From the NCBI GenBank assembly GCA_030248295.1, contig JASANH010001160.1, forward strand, positions 1 to 64,000: a stretch of 64,000 nt of DNA. The letters are read 5' to 3'. Position numbers and translations under genes: made by a program. Source of the DNA: Mesodorylaimus sp. YZB2_4. Its lineage: Eukaryota; Nematoda; Enoplea; Dorylaimida; Dorylaimidae. Shown here in pieces: positions 6,801 to 19,100 of this stretch; within the stretch, counting starts at the first letter, position 1, and each line of letters starts with the position of its first letter. Under the pieces are notes generated by a model. The model had not been told where the DNA came from. It was given only the letters and a program-made list of their open reading frames with translations, and did no database searches.

Positions 6801-6841
6801 TGTGATCAGTCGGTTGTGCACAGGCTGCATCTTTTTCAGTC

Positions 6842-7807
6842 ATGAATTCCAGCAACGAAACTCTTTCCCACACGCCCAGCAAATCCATCCTCATCTTCAC
6901 GATCGTGGGGCTGACTGTGTTCGGAATATTGGGCATAATCAGCAGCATCATCACAGCAATGGTCATTACCAAGAACAAGGCCCTGCACACTCCCTGCTAC
7001 ACCCTCATCGCCGGGGGTGGGATGGGTTCATTGGCAGTGGCTGCTCATTACTTGTCACGAGGCCTGGACAAGATCGGATTGCAGTTGGAGCTGTATGGAT
7101 TCGAGCCGAGTGGCATGGCGTGTCTGCTCTTGACCGGCACTCTGGGAATATGGGGCATCGCGTTTCACTCCCAAGTGTCCTGTCTAATCGCCATCGATCG
7201 TCTGATCAGCGTCACGACGCCGATGAAATATCGATCACTGGGGAAGAGATACTCGATGGGGCTACTGATCGGATGCGCCGTCTTTTGCGCAGTTCAATAA
7301 TTCATTGGTTTCGTGACAGCCAGTCTGCACGTTGATCTCCTGTGCACCGAATTCATGGACGTCCTGCACCCAGTCTTTATCAGAACCTACGCCCAAATCA
7401 ACTTGTTCTACTGCGTCCTCAACGTACTCGCGTACGGGGGGATGATAATCTGCTTCCGCTTCCGACATCTGTTCAGCGAGGCGACCACAATTCAAGACAC
7501 ATTCGCCAAGCAGCAACTGGCCGTCATGCCCACCGTCAAGCTGATGGTGGCCCTCTACTTGGTCACCGGAGTCCTTGCAGAGATATTGGTTAACGTCGGT
7601 CTCAATCTGCCACTGGACGATACGGCGTTCATTCTGCTCAGCGTTGGCACTATTTTAAAAAATGCCAGTTCTGTGGTCGAGGGCACAGCCTTGTTTGCCA
7701 GGAACAAGAAATTTCGGGAATGTTTTCGGGCTATGATTGGTTGGAAAAAGAATATTGTGACGGTTGGCACTGGTACTGCGACGGGAACTAATACAAATAG
7801 ACGGTAG
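6842..7807 (+). pseudogene. Seven-transmembrane receptor (nematode-like class), one in-frame stop in TM4
   Basis: An intronless frame of about 321 codons starts at ATG 6842 with two early N-glycosylation-type sites (NSSNETL). Hydrophobic segments follow in receptor order: TM1 (ILIFTIVGLTVFGILGI), TM2, TM3 ending in an AIDRLISV DR motif, TM4, TM5 (QINLFYCVLNVLAYGG), TM6 (VKLMVALYLVTGVL), TM7 (FILLSVGTILKNASS). A TAA at 7298-7300 interrupts TM4, but the same frame continues immediately with FIGFVTASLHV and runs on through TM5-7 to TAG 7805-7807. The DR motif and short loops are like nematode chemoreceptor families such as srsx; ligand unknown. The bases before the ATG (ctttttcag) look like a splice acceptor, so a non-coding 5' exon is likely. 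Either a recent pseudogene, a sequencing error or readthrough. Confidence 0.75.
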
Positions 7808-7810
7808 CAT

Positions 7811-9439
7811 GGAGCTTTGGGCGGAATTCCGGGAGTTTTCTATGTTGAGCATTTGTAGCCAAAGCGGATAGAGTGGCGTGTTAAAGCTTGGACTGTTACG
7901 GACTATGGGTGGATCGGCACTGCAGTGTGTTCTATCAACTCAAAGCCAGTAGCTTTTTGTTTTTCACACCCCCAATGATGATGAAAAGATGCGCACAGCG
8001 TGTGTAGATTGAGAATGTTTCGAGTACTGCTAAGCTACGCTAGAGTCGCACCGGCTGCGTTAGTCCAACAAACATGCACTTCCCAGGTCAACAATTTTTC
8101 TCAACTTTATCAGTATCAATAATTTCTTACCAGCTTTTCGGTTTTCTGAGTAATCTAGTCCACATACGAGGATAAATGCCAAGCAGCGTGCTCCAATCAG
8201 ACTTGCCTGCAATGCTGGCTTTTTGTGATCAATCCAATTTCCGTCTTGATATCAAAACAATAGACAGTCTGAGCCATCCTGGAAGTAGAAAATTCAGTTA
8301 TGAACAAGTCAATTATGAACAGCAAATTAAATCACATTACCAAGATTGCTTACGCGTTTATGTATGAATAAACCATGAAATGAATAAAGCATAACATGAG
8401 CTTGACACATTTCTTTTCTGCATTGACCTTCATCCAAAGCATAGGCTGACAGTGATGATAACTCATGGTGCGCCATGCAATAAATGTTTCTTTCAGTGTT
8501 TTTCAACGCGAAAAAGAATGGTATCGTTCCCCATCATTGGACCATCATTCGTGAACTAGCAGTCAATCAGAATGACAGGACACGGCCAGAAGCGCGCGGT
8601 AGACAGCGGGGCAGTGTAAAAGGAGGGAATGCAGTGTTCTGTCAGAAAAGTCACCCATGCTCTCAAAACTACTGGAGTATTGTACGTGAAATGAGTCCTC
8701 CCTCATCATAATGAGGCTACTTTACGCAGGCATCCAAAGACCATCATTATAACACAGAGCAGCAGAAGGCGACGCCATTCTGCATCGGCTGATAGGTTGG
8801 TTTGAGGATCAGAGAAGCACTGCCTACGAACATGGATCCGGGGACTTCACTGCTATTGTCTTGACTGGTCCGAACTGGTTGGACAGAATAAGTGGATATG
8901 TCGATTCTGTGAGGGGTGCAGTCTTCCTGTTTCGTTCCTTCCCGAATGAATATGAATGACTGATCTTCACTGGAGAAAACTATAGGTTATACGGACGTAC
9001 AGCAAATATGTAACACTGAAAGTGTTTATCTTTCGAGCTGACCTCACGTCTTCTCAATAATCAAGCATTTCGTACAAAATTTTATGAGTTCAGCGGTGAA
9101 TATGAGGTACAGTGAATGCGCTGACCAAATTTTAGAATGCGGTTCAGTAGAAGTGAACGCAAAGCATTCAACACAGTGATGGTCACCGCTCCAAGAAATA
9201 TAAATCTATGCAGTAGCAAAGGTGCAATTATCAGAAGCACACATACGGTATACGCACAGTATAAATTGTAATGGTATTTCTGAGGAGATTAGCACACAAG
9301 ATGTTCATTATTTGAACGAGAAGTCAATCGGAATGACAAGACACGGCTGGGAGCGCGAAAACACACCCCGTCCTATGAGAGAGTTGTGACAAATTGCACG
9401 TCTTTTGAGTTGAGCGGAAATTTCATTTCGTGTTGCCAG
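7811..9439. other. Intergenic, no clear gene
   Basis: Only short unconvincing frames (for example 8176-8367). A segment of about 45 bases at 8555-8597 recurs diverged at 9318-9360 (gtcaatc.gaatgaca.gacacgg), so some dispersed repeat material is present. The first exon of the four-repeat gene may lie in the right part. Confidence 0.4.
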
Positions 9440-12400
9440 AGACCGATTCGGACTCCAATGCTTTGGCGCAGTCATCTGAAAGAGGAGAGATAAACGAAAA
9501 AATTGCTAAAGGAAGGAAATCATTAGTTGGTTCCGTTGCAAAAAATGAAGCTTCGAGGTCCCAGGCTTCGTCAGCTGATGCCAATTTGCCAAGTTCTTAC
9601 TCTTTTCGGGTCGTTAGCAAAAATCAATGAAATGTCTTCATTTTTAGGCTTACTTTTGCAACAGGCTAACAGGATGGCATTATATTTTGGAACGGTCAGC
9701 TAAAATGTTTCGGACTGGGATGATCCAATTGTCGGTTTCTGGGCTCTTTAGTCATTCTGGCCCGTTTTGTAATACGAGTTGCTACAGGACTTTTTTGGAA
9801 ATTTTTGAGTATTCTATCCGAAGCAAATAGTTCTAGGAAATGGGCAAAAGTTATTCTGCTCCGTTGCCACACCCGACATCGGAATGTCCATATTTCTTCG
9901 TGGTCTTACGTCCTCCCAAGGCGTTAGTTCTCGTTTTTGCCAATGAGGATGTACGGCGTCTTGTCACTGATCGGCTACGTCAGTCTTGGTCGGCTGGTGT
10001 AAAAATTAATGATGGCAAATATTTTCAAATTATGCCCGATGGATCGTGCGAATATTTGCTAAAAGGTAAACCGTTTTCGAACACTATCGATTCAGGAAGA
10101 AAATCGGAATTGAATTTGTTATTTTGTAATTTATTGACTGATTTAAAATCAGTTGGATGGCGATTGATCACTAGTACTAAGGATTTGTCTCAGCCTACAC
10201 CGAATTCTTCCTGTTCAACATTATTCTTTCGCCGTTTGCAACATAAAAGTGCAGTCATCGATTTCGTAGAAGTCGCGAGTGATAGTGAGTTTATTTGCAT
10301 AAGTTCAGGCGGACTCGGCGATCCCGCCAATGTGCTTAAAGTCATCAATGCTCCCACGAAATTGGTCGCCGATTTAGCCGGCCTCGTGGAGCCGAGCGGG
10401 ACATGCAGGCTGGTCGGGAGTAGCCAACACGTATGTACCTTGAAAATGGATGAAATGATGTGGGCCGAGTGCGAATCGGTCTACTCGAGACGATTTTTGG
10501 TCAAGGTACTACAGTACGCAAGCGGGTTTTAGCCCTTGCTGCTATGAGAATGAGACAAGTACTGTGGGTTTTAGAGGCAGGCATTGTAAAGGAGAGCTGC
10601 AGTAGGCGGAGCTTAAAGTGCGTTAGCCAATTGGAATGTAGAATTACAAAAGCAGAAAACGACAAAAGACTGCGGACAAAACAGTATCTTTTACTTGACT
10701 GGCATGAACACCATTACACCAAACACTGCTGCAGTTGTCTCATCTGTCCATATTTTATGCTTTAATCACCTAGGCACTTAGGCATTCTCGCACCTTCATT
10801 GCCTCGGCTACGAATTCTGCACGTCTCTCAGCCTCGATGGTACATCGGACGCGGCCTTTTTCGATCGTGGTCACTCAACAACGCCTAAAATCGCGAGTCA
10901 TGCACCCGCATCACTGCACGATAGGGAAGCGATTTTGGAAGAAGACGAAGAGGAAGCAGAAAATGAAAACGTCCCAGCACTGAAAAGCGATGGTGACTCA
11001 GAGACGGAGGATCGCACAACTGCCCATTCTGCATCGGGCAGTTCCCCTTCTTCCAATTCTTCCTCGTCTCCTGGCGCACACTTCTTCATCTTGGATGTGT
11101 ACAAAAGCAGCACTCGATTGCGCGTAGTCAGGGTTCCTGTGAGAGTCCTTTTTCTGATCAGGTCCACCATCACGCTGCAATGGCCTTTCGGATTGAGATC
11201 AGTTACTCGTCTGGATGTGGACGCCTGCGAGTTCGTCCTGGGCATCGGTTCTGGTGATCGAGAGCGCACAGGTGCGTCTGCACCGGGTGCTAGTTCGGCT
11301 GTGTTTATGTGTCGGCTGCTTCACACGCTACAAATTCATGGATGGAATCTACTTGCTTGTTTGGATCTGAGCCATCAAAGCGATAAGAATAGCTTTGTAT
11401 TTCACGATTCCACATGGGATAACGAGCCGAAGTCGCGTCCGACAGGAAATGCGTAAGTTTTGTTCAAACTTTGTATTTAACGCGCCTTAACTGTTTCTGG
11501 TATTCTGCATACAATCCTTCACAGAGAGAGGAAAAGGGCGTAAATACCAGTCCATACATTATTTAAATCCTGACTTCTTGCACCTCCTATGCACCTCTTC
11601 TCACATGCTAGGAATCTCATACAGCGCAGCATGGATAACAGGAAGCACATGGACAAGCTTACTGTACACGGTACGATTGTCTGGGGCTTGGAAGATGGAT
11701 GATCGGCTGTCTGGATAATCTAGACTAGTCATACCTGGACAACCATTATTGCTTTCTGTGCTGTGACTGTTGCCGCTTAAGGGTGCGGCTTGGGCAGTTG
11801 GCTTGGTGGGGAGGAGCCAGGCAGTATAAGAAGCCTGGTTGAGATTAGGGCTTTCCCTTGGTTTCTTTCGCTCGATTCGTTTCGATCTAATTGTTCTGAA
11901 TTCGTGGGGAGACACCCTTCGCAATTGTCTTACCCATTTGGCAGACCTGTGGGGTGGGCCAGGCGCCTTCGATTAGCATACTCTCAAGGGGCCTCTGCGG
12001 TCGTAGTCCCTTTGGCTCTTGGCCCGCCCTAGGATAGACTATGGCTGACCAAAGGATGGCTCAAGCCGCAGGAACAATCCCACGCAGTCCACGGACACTT
12101 CGTGTTATAGGTTATCACCACAACACAAGGGCCGTGTAGACTCACGCTTCAGGGGAGTAGCCGCAAGTGCCGACCGTCAAAAATTCTGACAGACCTGAGC
12201 CCGGAGTGCTCAAAGAGCAAGTCCAGACCAGGAACTCAAGACCAGTCCTCTGCTGATGCCTGCAAACCAAACTGGACACTCGATCTCGTGCCGGCCCTGA
12301 CTCAGGAGAGGCAGACCGGCTCCCTGAACCAGTGCACCAATGGGCGGGGGAGCATAGTACATGCCTATTACACATTCGTGTGTTCTTAAAGGATCCTCTG

Positions 12401-13553
12401 GTGTTGGCTGAAGTCTTTACTGCGCCATCGACCGCGGAACTGGTTGCCAGCGTTGGCGTCTGAGGACTGGGTGCATTCGACCCGCAACCAGGCTAATATC
12501 ATTGCACAGAGCAGTTGCACTCACCCAGAGGCGCGGCATACACGCTTGAGGGGTTGTTGCAGGAATCGGGGTCCTAGTGAACGATACTCTGCAGGAATAA
12601 GCCTTTCAACCGGGCTTGGGCAATGGAAGACCTTGGACCGCTCACTTGTAAGATCAGCTCAACCCCGCCGGCACGTGAACATACCCGTAGAATATCTGTC
12701 GCACGTTCGCAACAACTGTGAGACCTACCAGGAAGACCTGTTTCCGTCAGACTGTTTTCCCGCTATCCACTGCTAGCTGTATCCGACTGTCTATAGCCAA
12801 GAGGTGATAGACGTGTCAAAAGTTAGGATTTTTAACAGGATCGATTATGGATTATTATCCTAGACAGAACCAGAAATGTCTGCTCCGTTGTCCAGGATGG
12901 AATGACCAGTGATTGCTTTTAGACCTGGGCTCCAGTATGACCAGCACGTGCACTCATCGTTGACCAGCATTCCAAACGGTCGTGTGTGGTGCATATGCAT
13001 GAGCGGTCCGTCCACAGTGACCATTCTGAATGCCCACTCGGAATTGCGGAACAGTGTGTGCGAGCTGATCACCCGATACTGGCCTCGGGGTGTGAAGAAC
13101 GTTGTTGAATTTGGTGGCAATCGTCGTATCCGGTTAGTCGGCCAACCCTGGATACCCTCAGTGCACTCAGACAGTGCTGACCAAGGGGACGGCGAGGAAT
13201 TTCGAGAAAATGAGGACTTGCTGGCTAGAAGTCTCATTTGCATTTTGTTGTCTGAACTTATGGAAAACTTTGACAGTCAGCCACTGTGTATGGCATCAAT
13301 CGCGTGGAAGATAGGAACTAATGATCGCAATCAATTATCTGATGCCCACTGCTCCTGGTTTTTCGTTGACCCTCATGCCGATGAGACGGATGAAGAAGGC
13401 GGTAGTGTGGAGAGTGGACCTGTTCAAGGACCCGGGGGAAGAATGTTCAAAAGGAGATCAACTATGTGAGTGCCTGTACTGACTTCAGAACAGGTTGTTG
13501 ATTTCTCTGAGTTGATGCAACTGACCATCATGCTTTCCGTTTTCAGATGCTGA
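9440..13553 (+). CDS. Uncharacterised protein with four tandem ~110-residue repeats
   Basis: Exons 9440-9609, 9837-10505, 10782-11452, 12923-13465 and 13547-13553 join in phase (0, 0, 2, 2) and end at TGA; the true first exon with ATG is not identified (an ATG at 9840 is an alternative start). About 686 residues. After an acidic/Ser-rich lead come four diverged units: unit 1 from PYFFVVLRPPKALVLVF; unit 2 from EFICISSGG, split by the intron after 10505; unit 3 from AHFFILDVYKSSTRLRVV; unit 4 from RVWCICMSGPSTVTILNA. Each has a beta strand, a V(I)NA-like strand, a helix ending near W..G, a F.L.G strand, then a helix L..L...GW.L..S.DLS and a closing FF/FV strand. Units 2 and 3 are separated by an acidic linker. 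No catalytic motif, signal peptide or membrane segment is seen. Family not recognised; function unknown. Confidence 0.7.
11453..12922. other. Intron of the four-repeat gene
   Basis: A 1,470-base intron running from gtaagttt to a gattgcttttag acceptor. Frames inside it on both strands show no recognisable product. Confidence 0.5.
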
Positions 13554-14704
13554 ATTGAATTCGATGCCAGATGGCAAATTTTTCTGCCAACATCCGCTTC
13601 GTCGAGCAGTGAAGATTGCTCGGATAAAATGTGCATTGTTGACTCAAAGATCAGCGATAGCAAGCGTACTGTAGATACTAGTACTGTGTTGCTGTAGGCT
13701 ACGATGGTTACTTTGCGCACATTAGCTGCTCTCTCTGGCACTGCTGCTTGCTTAGCTTTCCACAAGTTCATACACAGTATTAGTACAATCAGTGCTGTCT
13801 AGTGGGTTCCCTTTCACAAATTGCGACGGCCAACCATCCAGTGCTTGCACGAGACGAGGTGCCGCACTGACCAGTCAAGGCCCTGTCACAGGTGCTGCAT
13901 GCAAGAAATGGGCGTCTCAGTCTGGATAGAACGTTATCTTTTGTACTTTCCACGACGGTTTCAAAAAAGAGGACTCGATTGCACAGAAGATGGTCCTTTA
14001 TCCAACCTTGCAAGGCATGGAGGTGTTGCCTGCAGTGATTTATTTCAGTGAAAATAGGAAAATCCATTTTCCTCTTAAAGTCAAATCCATATTTAAAAGC
14101 TATCGGTAGGTCAGAGAAATCTGGGAAAAATAAATCATCTGTTTTTTCAATAAGCCAAGTGTAAAAAACGAGCAGGACTTCTCTCTTCCATCGTCGACCC
14201 AGTGGACTGCCCTCACACCTGGCGATACTGTCCCTCTCTCAGCTTGCCCGAGCCCTCGGAGTGGGCATGCCAGTTCGAGGAGTGCACTGCCCTCATCGTC
14301 GAAGGGGCCTCAAGTCCGAGGTGCAAGAGAAATGAATGCGGGGGTTTAGTCTAGTCGGCTGAGATCTCCATCTTTGTTCTCGCTGGTTGTAAATTGGGTG
14401 TGGAAAGGTCGATGCAAAAGGAGAAGCTGCAGTAATCCAAGCAAATCGGAAAATTATCTCGGGTTCGAATTCTATCAGGAGAATAATGCACAAGACCACG
14501 CTAGCTGCTCTTATTGCAGAGCAAATCAAGGGCGTTTCATATCGGCAGACTCCAGTGGCTCGCCTGCTGATAGGATTCATAATAATCTGATTATTCAAAA
14601 GCCTCAGAGCAAATTCTCGAACCCCCAGGCCTCATTGTCAGTCCCACCTGCAACTGCTATGTTTGTAACAAAAACAAGCTAATCTGATCAAAAATCAAGT
14701 GCAT
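13554..14704. other. Intergenic, convergent gap
   Basis: Between the stop of the four-repeat gene and the stop of the minus-strand WD40 gene. Short frames here (for example 14293-14682 on both strands) show no domain and I support none. Confidence 0.5.
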
Positions 14705-15805
14705 CTAGTCATCAGCGACCACCTTTTTCTTTCCCATAATTTTCCGTTTCTTTTTTGCCATCCGTCCATTTATATCCAACTTTAATTTCTTCACTTTCTT
14801 TTCCGCCTTCTTCCCATTCTCAGCCTTGCTCTGGTTGGGCTCATCGTCAGCATGCGCGTCCTGAACTGTCGTGGCCATGCTTATAATTCTTGCACCCACA
14901 TTCGTAGACGCCAACTGTTCGATTGCCAAAGTGCCATTTGCCCGACAATATCGAAATACTCGAAGCCATCCAGTGCTGCTTGCCGAAGTTACGAAACCAC
15001 CATCCGAGGAGGACTTGATCGCGTACAATGCCTTCACCCGGCCGTTCTCAGCCGAGGACTCAAGAAGCACTGAAGACTCCCCTTCATCTGATAGATAAGA
15101 TCGGATCTGTCCACTTTGAAATCCAACCACCACAAATTCCATTTCTGGCATGAAAACGGCGCAAGTTGCGTTCGAATCGAAAACGGTGCTGTTTCTCAGC
15201 TCGCAATTGGCCGTATTGTACACACATAACTGGCGAGTGTACAATACGCCATAAAACTGACCACTAGTCGACCAAAAAGTGCAGACGGGATCTTGATTCT
15301 GCTCGCACGGAACACACGCCGCTTGTCGCAGATTGATCAAATCCCACGTTCTCATGGTTCGATCACCCGACGCGATAGTCAATGCCAATCGCCCCGATGG
15401 ATGGATGGATAAATCCAATGGTGCACATCGTTTATGCGTTTTCGGAAAAGTGTGCAATGGTGCTTCGCAATCGGACACTTTCCAAATGCACATGGAGCCA
15501 GCATCGTCCACACTCATAAGTCGATCATCGCCAATAAATCGAAGACACGTGATCGATGATTCGTGCGCGTGAATACTACCCACTTGACGAGGCCGATCGA
15601 AGAGGCTGCAAAATAATTGAAGCGTTTCATCCCCGCTACCCGATGCGAAATAACGACCTGATGCGGAAATGGCTACGGCCCGTACGCTTCTGGAATGAGA
15701 CTGATCGGTGAAGACCAATTTGAGGCAGGCAGACGAAGGGTCGAAACGATAGCATAGAAATAAATTTTCGTAGGTACCAATCAACAGATAGACCGATTTC
15801 GTCAT
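14705..15805 (-). CDS. PAK1IP1: WD40 protein, PAK1-interacting protein 1 / MAK11 homologue
   Basis: A single 366-codon exon starting MTKSVYLLIGTYENLF. The protein is a short WD40 propeller: units of the type RAVAISASGRYFASGSGDETLQLF, ITCLRFIGDDRLMSVDDAGSMCIWKV, LDLSIHPSGRLALTIASGDRTMRTWDL. The order, the opening strand (GTYE..L..Y) and the Lys-rich C-terminal tail (KKAEKKVKKLKLD, MAKKKRKIMGKKK) match the PAK1IP1/MAK11 family, which acts in the nucleolus in maturation of the 60S ribosomal subunit and, in mammals, binds PAK1. The length fits the family (about 390 residues). It lies head to head with the NADAR gene, start codons 319 bases apart. Confidence 0.85.
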   Translation of the reverse strand: MTKSVYLLIGTYENLFLCYRFDPSSACLKLVFTDQSHSRSVRAVAISASGRYFASGSGDETLQLFCSLFDRPRQVGSIHAHESSITCLRFIGDDRLMSVDDAGSMCIWKVSDCEAPLHTFPKTHKRCAPLDLSIHPSGRLALTIASGDRTMRTWDLINLRQAACVPCEQNQDPVCTFWSTSGQFYGVLYTRQLCVYNTANCELRNSTVFDSNATCAVFMPEMEFVVVGFQSGQIRSYLSDEGESSVLLESSAENGRVKALYAIKSSSDGGFVTSASSTGWLRVFRYCRANGTLAIEQLASTNVGARIISMATTVQDAHADDEPNQSKAENGKKAEKKVKKLKLDINGRMAKKKRKIMGKKKVVADD

Positions 15806-16124
15806 GATTTCGATAGAAGAATTTCAAGAAAATCATAGAATCAGATCTGACCTTCGTCCGATCGAGTTATATACTGTATCAACCAGACAATTCCGAATAC
15901 AGACTTCTCCCGCTTGCAGCAGACAAATTTCGATCAGACATTAGTACCTGAATATCATACAGTTAAGCGATAATAAAGTGTAGCGTTCGGCCGCTGGGTA
16001 CTCCATCGTCGCTCTAACATTATACAGCTAACACTTATAGCGATTACCAATAGCGCTCGTGACCATCGATCGATCTGCAGTTTTGTCTAAAAATTTATCG
16101 TAGACGAGATCGAATTCAGAAGCA
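15806..16124. promoter_or_regulatory. Putative bidirectional promoter, PAK1IP1 / NADAR gene
   Basis: A 319-base gap separates two divergent start codons. It is rich in TCGATC-type words and must contain both 5' ends unless there are distant non-coding exons. No defined core promoter motif could be assigned by eye. Confidence 0.4.
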
Positions 16125-19100
16125 ATGGATTACGGGGTTGATTCGGGTATCGTCATTGTTCACGGTTCTAATGACATTTTGAATTCTTCCTACTTATCGC
16201 CAATAAACGATGGAAAATTAGAATTTCCATCAATCAATCACTTTTGTCAATTTCAAATTTTGTTACGAGCTGGTTTTCAGACCGAAGCGCAAGAAATTTT
16301 GGAAACTTTGAATCCTCGATCACGATACAAACTTGTTCGTAATTGTATCATTGGTCGATTCTGTCAAGGCGATATGGGAAGAGGAAATCGATATTTGACC
16401 GATGCCACTGACGAATTCTTACGAATCGGATTAAGTCTAAGATTTGGACAAGATCCTTCGTTTCGGCGAGCTTTGATGGACACGGGACGAGCTCTATTAG
16501 CGCATTGCGATCCAGAAGATTTCCAATACGGATTAGGTATGGATGAAAAAATGTTTTTGACTTGGGTCGAATCGCAAGGATTAAAAACGGATATTTTATT
16601 CAATTGGTTCCGACGTTACGATTCGTGTCCATGTCGAGAAATTGTAGGCAATAACAAATTAGGTGTTTTTTTGATGGAAATACGGGCCGAAGAAATCGAA
16701 CGATTGAGACGACTCTCGCCGCCCTTGGCCCCCATTGGATCACTGGCACCGTCAGCGCCGTTTGGACATCCCCAACCTGCCCTCCCATCACGATCTGCTA
16801 TGAGTCCTAGTTTGCCGCAGTTGCCGCACGAACAGCCGATTCCGTATCGGCCAACTCCTATGGATCTGCTGCCACCACCACCCCCGAGATTATTGAGCCA
16901 AGCGGAGATCGATGAATTTTTATACCAGCCCTATGTGATATCGGTGTCGGAAGAAGGGGATGAGGATGGCGATTGGATCGTGTCCGATCAGATTTTGGCT
17001 TTAGAAGGACCATTCGCCGTTTTAAGCCAGTATTATCCAACACCGTTCGCCACTCGAAAAAGACGCTATCGATCGGTCGAACATTACGCCTATCAAAAAT
17101 TTTTTCGCAAATTGAAATTGGATGGAAAAATAAAAGAGAAATTGGTGACGACTCCTGATCCGTCCAAAGTGAGTGGGTTGGCCAGACGATTGTTGATGGA
17201 GGTTTGGAAGGAAAAGAGACAAGCAGAGGAAGGAAATAAGACAGGTACGGCATGCTTTTGTCTAGTGCTCTACGCATCGCATATTCAGAGTGTAAAGTGG
17301 GAAGGGTTTGTAGGGTCCTGCCCCACCCTTGAGGTCTCGCGGAAAAGTATTTATTACTCCTACCCCTAGGATGTTAGGATAACCTATTTACAGAAAGTGC
17401 CATTATCGAACGTTATTTGTAGTAAAAAGCAAAAACCGTTCTCATAAAATTAATCCCTTCAATACAGAAAACTTAAAATAAGAGTGGCGGGAAAATGTGT
17501 ATGACTTTTCATAAATTCAATGTTTTATTCTTTTAGCCACAAGTTCCGACAAAGTCAAGTCCGAATCAGTGGATGGGTCAAACCATGACGAAACGAATTT
17601 CTACGATGCTCTTTTGGAATATTACGAGCGAGCGACGAAATTGAAATTCGAACAATATCCCGTCTTGAAACGACTTTTGGTGGCCACTGGTGATGCCCTC
17701 TTGGTCGAGACATGTCGAACGACTGATACGACAGCCGCTAGCCAATGGACGACGCGCGTTGATGAAAGCGAACTTCAACGTTTTCTCACTTCATCGCCGT
17801 ATAATACCAGCGATTTATTACGTTTATTTTTGAACTGGGATAAAAAATATTTTCGTTATTTTTCGGGAGTAGTTGGTCGAAATCGAGCTGGTTTGGCATT
17901 GATGCGATTAAGAAGAGAATACAAAAGAGCCAATGTGGAATTACTTCATTTACCACCACCACCGCCGACGGGAGGAGAATTGGATGAAAATAGGACCATT
18001 TGTTTCACGAATACGAGTATATTCCATCCGAATTATGTGGCACCATTTTGGACAAAAGAAGGCGATATTTACACTAGTGTCCAACATTTCATATGTTTGG
18101 CAGCGGCAAAAAAGTTCAATTTTTCGGAATCGATTCAAAAGAATTTAGTCGGATGTGATGCGAGCCAAGTTGAGTCGTGGTTATGGTGGTACGTCTATCA
18201 ACGATTCCCCGGGCCCGAACCGTATTTGGAATGGTTGTGGACTGGCGGGCGAGACGAGATGTTCAAAATGGGGAGTCGACTCAAATTCGAGAAACATCCC
18301 GATCTGATGAGGGCCTTATTGGAAACTGGCAATGCCTTGTTGGTGTATTGCAGAGGCCGATTCGAAACGGAGGATACGGAATGGTCGATCGGCATGAGCG
18401 AATATGATCTGAAATTATGGATGCAGGAAAGTAGATGCGATTGTCGAACGTTATTGAAACGATGCCTGTCGCCGTTGCAAAGACGGCCGGCGTTTTTGGG
18501 TGGAAATCGAATCGGAGCATTGTTGATGGAATTAAGAAGGGAGTTCCGATTGCGAGGAATTCAGCCTCATACGCTGCCCAAATTGGCCATACCGCCGCAA
18601 GTGGTGCTAGGAACAGGTGGGTAATGGGTGACCATCTCCCCCATCAAGGGGGTGTTGAACCCTAATATTTCGCATGAAATGGTGTCGATGGTACAGGCAA
18701 GGTGGGAAATCAGTTGTCGTTGGCGTTGATGACACGCCATCACTGTCTGGGCAGTGTATAGACTAACTGATTTCCCAGTTTTGGCTGTAAACAATCCTGA
18801 GCGCAAATAACAATCCAGAATAAAAAATTATGCGTGGCATTGATTGATTGCCCAAGGATTAGGTGTCTCATTTGGGAGTACACGTGAAGTGAGGATAGAA
18901 GACGTTAGGGATGTACCGAGCCAGCATCGGCCGAACCGACCCACCGATCCGGGCCGGATCGGTTTGGGGGAACCGACTCAAGCTGTGGGTCGGCCGGATC
19001 GGAATTTTGAGTTCCCGCCAAAATATCTTCTCTGGCGCCCAGTCATGTCTTCATGCAGGCAGCTAGGATCGACGCTTCAACCCACTTGACTGGCCGCCCA

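Follow-up and report, generated by a model that had tools for sequence, protein, structure and literature searches.

The closest described fold relatives of the protein domain treated here are ring-forming proteins. Q4D6Q6 of Trypanosoma cruzi is described as a propeller-like homotetramer, and the same assembly is predicted for Q586B2 of T. brucei (PMC10899635). The C-terminal domain (CTD) of KCTD1 has the same fold and pentameric assembly as GFRP (PMC7618933). The H1 domain of KCTD12 forms a pentamer that binds Gβγ in a 5:5 complex, and H1 of KCTD8 is a tetramer (PMC13361646). A radically different crystal organisation has been described for the KCTD8 domain (PMC8699099), Gβγ interaction is reported for nearly all of 25 KCTDs (PMC9976452), and the likeness of KCTD8 H1 to GFRP has been noted (PMC6851490). 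Ring assembly, together with partner binding by the ring, is the theme common to these fold relatives. The subject of this report is a gene of the nematode Mesodorylaimus sp. YZB2_4, located in positions 1 to 64,000 of contig JASANH010001160.1 (GenBank assembly GCA_030248295.1; this whole 64,000-nucleotide stretch is called the window). In its single protein chain a domain of ~110 residues, predicted to share this fold, occurs in four diverged copies, and the best overall explanation is that it probably encodes a lipid-anchored, single-chain "four-domain ring" scaffold.

Four diverged units in one spliced gene

The original prediction, made from the DNA sequence alone, had read positions 9440-13553 as a protein in which a domain of ~110 residues is repeated in four diverged forms. 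These copies are borne out by a family profile of 36 units from other loci, built without window rows. Scores for the four window units are given in the list below; the best of 1000 shuffles per unit reached 6.6, 7.6, 10.1 and 7.7 bits for units 1 to 4, respectively (679-817 of each 1000 were reported at all). A smaller profile, built on 12 units taken from three loci outside the window, recovers unit 1 at E 3.9e-16, unit 4 at 1e-13 and unit 3 at 1.3e-9, with the next best other window frame at E 0.58; this 12-unit profile does not detect window unit 2 as a unit. The end of unit 2 reads DGTSDAAFF, as against KGTAD or KGTSD and then FF (or similar) in many second units of paralogues.

The predicted spliced gene has exons at 9840-10505, 10782-11452 and 12923-13469. 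The proposed joins 10505/10782 and 11452/12923 keep the frame across three large exons to give a protein of 627 residues, so that the locus is, as anticipated, a single four-unit gene with an intron splitting unit 2. The units lie nearly where they were first placed. Features of the gene are as follows.

9840-10505, plus strand: exon 1 (222 aa), encoding MGKSYS at the N-terminus, all of unit 1 and most of unit 2; open frame 9837-10532
9840-9857, plus strand: predicted N-myristoylation signal MGKSYS (G2, S6), of the form M-G-x-x-x-S shared by most of the family N-termini read
9882-10238, plus strand: unit 1, family profile 68.0 bits
10248-10505, plus strand: unit 2, N-terminal part; the spliced unit scores 20.5 bits with the family profile and is the most diverged of the four
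10506-10781, plus strand: intron 1, GTACTA...CACTTAG, inside the region aligning with helix 2 of unit 2
10782-11452, plus strand: exon 2, with the end of unit 2, an acidic Ser-rich linker and unit 3; open frame 10782-11456
10782-10871, plus strand: unit 2, C-terminal part, carrying DGTSDAAFF
11073-11408, plus strand: unit 3, family profile 44.5 bits
11453-12922, plus strand: intron 2, with a GTAAGT donor at 11453 and a TTTTAG acceptor
12923-13469, plus strand: exon 3, with unit 4 and the C-terminal tail; open frame 12906-13469
12975-13370, plus strand: unit 4, family profile 53.5 bits

The start of the gene differs from that first proposed, and the end may do so. The start at 9440 is replaced by 9840, the first in-frame ATG; an in-frame TAG lies two codons upstream, and MGKSYS resembles the starts of paralogues. 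The stop before this ATG and the shared N-terminus speak against a coding exon at 9440-9839; a non-coding exon may lie upstream of 9840. Two 3' ends are available, TGA at 13467-13469 or TGA at 13551-13553, the latter via an extra intron at 13466-13546 (GTGAGT donor at 13466, TTTTCAG acceptor ending at 13546). The earlier end at 13553 is thus correct if that intron is used; otherwise the gene ends at 13469.

Contig C68 (158800-164418) holds a 95-97% copy of window positions 8540-12035, a recent duplication or a divergent haplotype that ends inside intron 2 and is without exon 3. Exons 1 and 2 differ from it by 29 substitutions, with 0 gap columns and no stop in 1337 bases. In intron 1 there are 11 substitutions and 23 gap columns; gap columns number 140 in the stretch upstream and 10 in the aligned part of intron 2 (all such figures are columns, not events). 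Because gap columns fall in intron 1 and none in the flanking exons, the borders of exons 1 and 2 are supported. The ratio of nonsynonymous to synonymous substitution rates (dN/dS) between the two copies is 0.49, which does not fall significantly short of 1 (Fisher P 0.07), and the comparison says more about the exon borders than about constraint. No match to exon 3 was found on C68, and the ~1.95 kb inspected past the break is without it. By eye, the C68 sequence past the break resembled the terminal part of a non-LTR reverse transcriptase; Pfam gave no hit, and the identification is not claimed.

A genome-wide family with four units

The repeat is not confined to this gene; its four-unit plan is common to a genome-wide family. 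Searches of the 145-Mb assembly, in which the window lies on contig C230, used the window exons and two paralogue proteins as queries and were combined with a profile scan of the stretches around loci; the resulting counts are lower bounds. At least 24 loci were found, 21 of them with four units, some in pieces as introns would give, and a fifth unit was seen at none of the 24.

Contigs with several family loci: C100 (four), C112 (three), C15 (three), C35 (two)
Contigs with one family locus: C22, C34, C44, C51, C57, C68, C92, C113, C132, C230 (the window), C266, C412

All four units lie in one open frame at five loci, namely C112 (527 aa), C132 (574), C22 (654, or 662 in one search) and C35 twice (540 and 577), on which ground the reading as separate genes without shared repeats was rejected. 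Unit envelopes in the C112 protein (17-125, 135-242, 249-368 and 373-490) leave short linkers. The four-unit count at three C100 loci and for parts of C15a, C44 and C266 was judged from how far a four-unit query is covered, and the second units of C34 and of the window, which fall below the profile-scan threshold, were accepted from position-class scoring and the tree. Matches at several of the 21 four-unit loci are interrupted by stops, and some of these loci may not be intact genes. Three loci are incomplete: C68 (without exon 3), one C112 copy (pieces with stops) and C113 (a single fragment matched). One match of the first census, C22:452541-452765 (E 0.71), was dropped as chance.

C-terminal tails of some paralogues carry PPxY motifs (PPPY and PPAY in C34, PPRY in C112) that are absent from the window protein. 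It is possible that these motifs would suit WW-domain partners.

Order of the four positions

The four positions are recognisably distinct across the family. When four position-specific profiles were built without window rows, the top score of each window unit fell to its own class: 74.2 bits for unit 1 (others at most 36.3), 21.7 for unit 2 (at most 17.5), 49.3 for unit 3 (at most 37.2) and 63.7 for unit 4 (at most 37.6). The class-2 profile scores window unit 4 (33.7) above window unit 2 (21.7); the top class of unit 4 is still class 4.

A maximum-likelihood tree (quick search, with the Shimodaira-Hasegawa-like approximate likelihood-ratio test, SH-aLRT) was made for 57 units from 17 loci; two near-copies (C68, C112b) and one fragment (C112c) were excluded. 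Position labels change six times on it (the minimum possible is three), as against a mean of 32.0 for shuffled labels, and 0 of 200 shuffles was as low. Because position labels cluster in this way, the tree suggests that the four positions arose in a single quadruplication and had diverged before the genes spread. Window unit 2 pairs with unit 2 of C34 (SH-aLRT 95); window units 3 and 4 have no resolved place.

Domain libraries and sequence searches

Domain libraries offer little. Among 39 family units, the best Pfam match has E 0.0097 and the best NCBIfam match 0.014; matches are scattered over families, each hit by one or two of the units. PHROGs gives one isolated match, of a single member (E 2.6e-4), to a family without function. 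A Pfam scan of the whole 627-residue spliced protein returned no family at E 1, hence no BTB/T1 match. An undescribed repeat family, as was proposed, is thus upheld for Pfam, NCBIfam and PHROGs; the companion statement that no known domain could be assigned is not supported, given the fold relatives described below. The best matches of single-sequence searches (PsaD at 0.16 in Pfam, hepsin at 0.033 in the PDB) were set aside as chance level.

Two sequence results point toward the ring-forming relatives. The 39-unit profile, searched against 177,635 PDB sequences, ranks Q4D6Q6 first (E 1.4, not significant) in an alignment that is collinear over positions 23-109 of 110 with the motifs in order; the RuBisCO small subunit (E 1.7) is the only other match. 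One of the 39 units matched GFRP (PF06399, curated cut-off 25 bits) in Pfam at E 0.032, and the window protein did not at E 1. Profile-profile alignment (hhalign) of the family with an own-genome GFRP pair gave a weak match of 40.7% probability (P 2.9e-4, 51 columns), and nine unrelated window proteins, used as single-sequence controls, gave 0.0-0.7%.

The sole match under E 1e-3 in a viral library is to a pandoravirus BTB/POZ protein (E 7.3e-4). Searches of prokaryote genomes with unit 1 and of viral contigs with a class-4 alignment found no relative, and such short, few-sequence queries would miss distant ones. A word search of open-access papers found no description of the four-unit family. 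Elsewhere in the genome, GFRP matches over the Pfam cut-off lie at C371:31264-31512, C23:375544-375807 and C30:45630-45834, one of them split into two neighbouring pieces.

Predicted fold from structure models

AlphaFold models of units 1 and 3 were made separately, from alignments of window rows only. The predicted local distance difference test score (pLDDT) and predicted template-modelling score (pTM) are 73.6 and 0.68 for unit 1 and 80.0 and 0.72 for unit 3. Unit 3 has the order ββ-α-ββ-α-ββ (E4-10 E15-19 H23-36 E41-48 E51-56 H71-88 E92-98 E105-111), and the unit 1 model has one strand (of at least 3 residues) fewer.

Foldseek searches of 350,542 PDB chains place Q4D6Q6 chains at ranks 1-6 for both models. 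For unit 1, the 12 matches at E 1e-3 or below comprise seven Q4D6Q6 chains and five mitoribosomal assembly chains; the top match, 6xyb (Q4D6Q6), has E 4.7e-5 and probability 1.00, and the Q4D6Q6 chains have template-modelling (TM) scores by query of 0.58-0.66. The same entry leads for unit 3 (E 1.6e-3, probability 1.00), followed by the same groups. After Q4D6Q6 come chains of mitoribosomal small-subunit assembly (6sga, 9hny) and then entries of KCTD8 and KCTD12 H1 and of KCTD1. These KCTD entries take ranks 17-24 for unit 1 (E 9.2e-3 to 9.0e-2, probability 0.91-0.99; KCTD8 H1 at 9.2e-3) and ranks 11, 12 and 14-20 for unit 3 (E 1.8e-2 to 0.11, probability 0.87-1.00; KCTD12 H1 at 1.8e-2), with some further KCTD12 chains scoring lower. 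AlphaFold2 weights are older than the release of 6xyb (2020) and 6g57 (2019); because they predate these entries, the match should not be recall of them. The structure search speaks against the view that no known domain is assignable: it places the models of units 1 and 3 in the Q4D6Q6/KCTD C-terminal fold, with weak support from the GFRP profile match. From these models, the window units very probably share the fold of Q4D6Q6, the KCTD C-terminal domains and GFRP.

N-terminus and predicted membrane anchoring

N-myristoylation follows the rule of an N-terminus M-G-x-x-x-S/T. The form M-G-x-x-x-S is present at 12 of the 17 N-termini read: the window, C34, C112, C35 twice, C412, C44, C51, C92, C266, C57 and C15c. 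The count omits C68 as a near-copy, and six loci were not read. In 11 of the 12 no methionine precedes that of the motif within the open frame; in C412 one does. Judged by this motif, the window protein is quite likely anchored at the membrane by the predicted N-myristoylation.

A proposed single-chain ring scaffold and its alternatives

It is proposed that the gene encodes a lipid-anchored scaffold in which the fold of GFRP, KCTD C-terminal domains and Q4D6Q6 recurs four times along the chain. Fold relatives that have a single copy per chain assemble into rings by homo-oligomerisation; the window chain would have four such subunits already fused. Since the subunits are fused and each position has its own conserved sequence, one chain would probably close, by analogy with those relatives, into a single asymmetric pseudo-tetrameric ring, a covalent counterpart of the Q4D6Q6 tetramer. 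If MGxxxS is myristoylated as predicted, the ring would be held at the membrane as an adaptor, and its outer faces would bind partner proteins. Gβγ is a candidate partner because KCTD proteins bind it, an unlikely one on present analogy.

Several observations weigh against this proposal. Sequence similarity to Q4D6Q6 is by itself not significant (E 1.4), model confidence is moderate, the root mean square deviation to Q4D6Q6 is 4-6 Å, and the unit 3 model has no match at E 1e-3 or better. Foldseek also scores sequence letters, which makes the sequence and structure rankings partly dependent on each other. The models cover single units, and the ring geometry is proposed by analogy; and because KCTD C-terminal domains and GFRP make five-fold rings, the presence of four copies does not in itself imply a ring. 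Unit 2 of the window has diverged strongly (20.5 bits), and the linker between units 2 and 3 is long (~67 residues, acidic and Ser-rich). Most forks of the tree lack resolution (31 of 54 inner branches are open and 7 starred), and unit 4 of C132 and unit 1 of C35b are placed on its unit 2 side. Stops occur inside the matches at several four-unit loci (e.g., C100), where introns or decay are possible. Five of the 17 N-termini (C132, C15a, C15b, C100d and C22) are without MGxxxS, and position 3 of the window motif is Lys, which the strict PROSITE myristoylation pattern excludes; neuronal calcium sensors start MGK.

The long linker between units 2 and 3 also favours "beads on a string", that is, four domains in a chain that does not close, each with its own partner, or several chains joined in larger rings. 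The fold tolerates several assemblies, as the KCTD papers indicate (a KCTD8 H1 tetramer and KCTD12 H1 pentamer, PMC13361646; the KCTD8 crystal organisation, PMC8699099). The recurrence of four units (21 of 24 loci) and the short linkers of single-frame paralogues (C112) suit a compact closed body, however, and position-specific divergence suits fixed neighbours, so that this arrangement is the less probable one, with a real chance of being correct. Alternatively, the likeness to Q4D6Q6, KCTD proteins and GFRP could be chance or convergence of a common α/β sandwich, the units being a separate fold family with another function. TM-scores by query of 0.50-0.66 over the Q4D6Q6 chains are indeed moderate, and the RuBisCO small subunit follows close behind Q4D6Q6 in the sequence search. 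Against this, Q4D6Q6 ranks first by sequence and again by structure with each of the two units modelled, the GFRP profile match lies far above all nine controls, and the element order of unit 3 equals that reported for Q4D6Q6; such a coincidence appears improbable.

It is more improbable still that the gene is decaying or misjoined, with exons 1-2 and exon 3 belonging to separate genes or the window copy a pseudogene. The C68 copy does lack exon 3, the dN/dS value falls short of significance, unit 2 is very diverged and intron 2 contains a high-copy repeat. Yet the 1337 exon bases have no gap column and no stop on C68, unit 4 falls in position class 4, and the single-frame paralogues hold units 1 to 4 in one frame. 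The lipid-anchored, single-chain ring is accordingly the explanation that we prefer. Beyond it lies a wider and rather doubtful extension: that a large family of covalent four-domain rings with lipid anchors arose in nematodes from the kind of single-domain oligomer used by other eukaryotes, that a separate sequence for each position made the symmetric ring an asymmetric hub, which at the membrane would bind partners such as Gβγ and tune receptor signalling, and that a "kinetoplastid-specific" protein would be a member of a eukaryote-wide superfamily.

Other features of the window

Within intron 2, ~11781-12716 is a dispersed high-copy repeat, with at least 77 matches in a DNA search of the genome (40 of 1468 candidates scored). 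Many scored copies are without the piece that matches ~12018-12373, and this piece also matches alone elsewhere, which suggests one repeat nested in another. Rfam at gathering scores gave no match in 9000-14000. The assembly has 133 matches to the N-terminal domain of cuticle collagen, a nematode marker that gave none in 14 control genomes; with the Srsx-type chemoreceptor listed below, they indicate nematode origin. Neighbouring genes are as follows.

6806-7300, plus strand: Srsx-type chemoreceptor (Pfam E 1.3e-8)
7301-7807, plus strand: open frame adjoining the chemoreceptor; looks membrane-spanning, no Pfam match
14708-15823, minus strand: WD40-repeat protein in one open frame beyond the four-unit gene, resembling PAK1IP1
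16104-17366, plus strand: open frame with a NADAR domain (Pfam E 9e-17)
17515-18621, plus strand: adjacent open frame with NADAR (Pfam E 2.5e-18) in two matched stretches, giving a tandem of NADAR genes or domains

Comparison with known systems

The mitoribosomal assembly chains (6sga FQ-FU of T. brucei; 9hny FQ, FR, FT and FU) match unit 1 at E 2.4e-4 to 3.7e-3, and fewer of them match unit 3. They are separate chains of 215-277 residues, as against four domains in one window chain; two mitoribosome papers (PMC11785013, PMC12885271) gave no relevant passage on a ring or tetramer. The KCTD8/KCTD12 H1 and KCTD1 entries are the next structural matches, the aligned part of KCTD1 being unspecified. 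KCTD proteins combine a BTB domain with one C-terminal domain and are usually pentameric, whereas the window protein is without a BTB match. GFRP, whose profile-profile likeness to the family is weak, is a single domain without repeats that forms a pentamer, in contrast to four units per chain in the window family.

Q4D6Q6 (PDB 6xyb/6xyd) is the best structural match of both units modelled. It and Q586B2 have one domain (115 aa in Q586B2) and form, or are predicted to form, a homotetramer, whereas the window protein has four diverged domains per chain and, unlike either, a lipid-anchor-like N-terminus. The fold is known; as far as the literature was searched, its fourfold fusion in one chain, the start resembling a lipid anchor and the expansion in this nematode genome are undescribed. 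The present work offers a first fold and a testable assembly for a nematode family (at least 21 four-unit loci in its own genome) missed by the domain libraries searched. It suggests in turn that Q4D6Q6, called kinetoplastid-specific in the title of its structure paper, may be part of a broader fold superfamily of eukaryotes that includes GFRP and the KCTD C-terminal domains. If the proposal is correct, rings that elsewhere are built of identical subunits would here have become a single chain whose four positions are specialised, which amounts to a natural experiment in the passage from a symmetric oligomer to an asymmetric machine.

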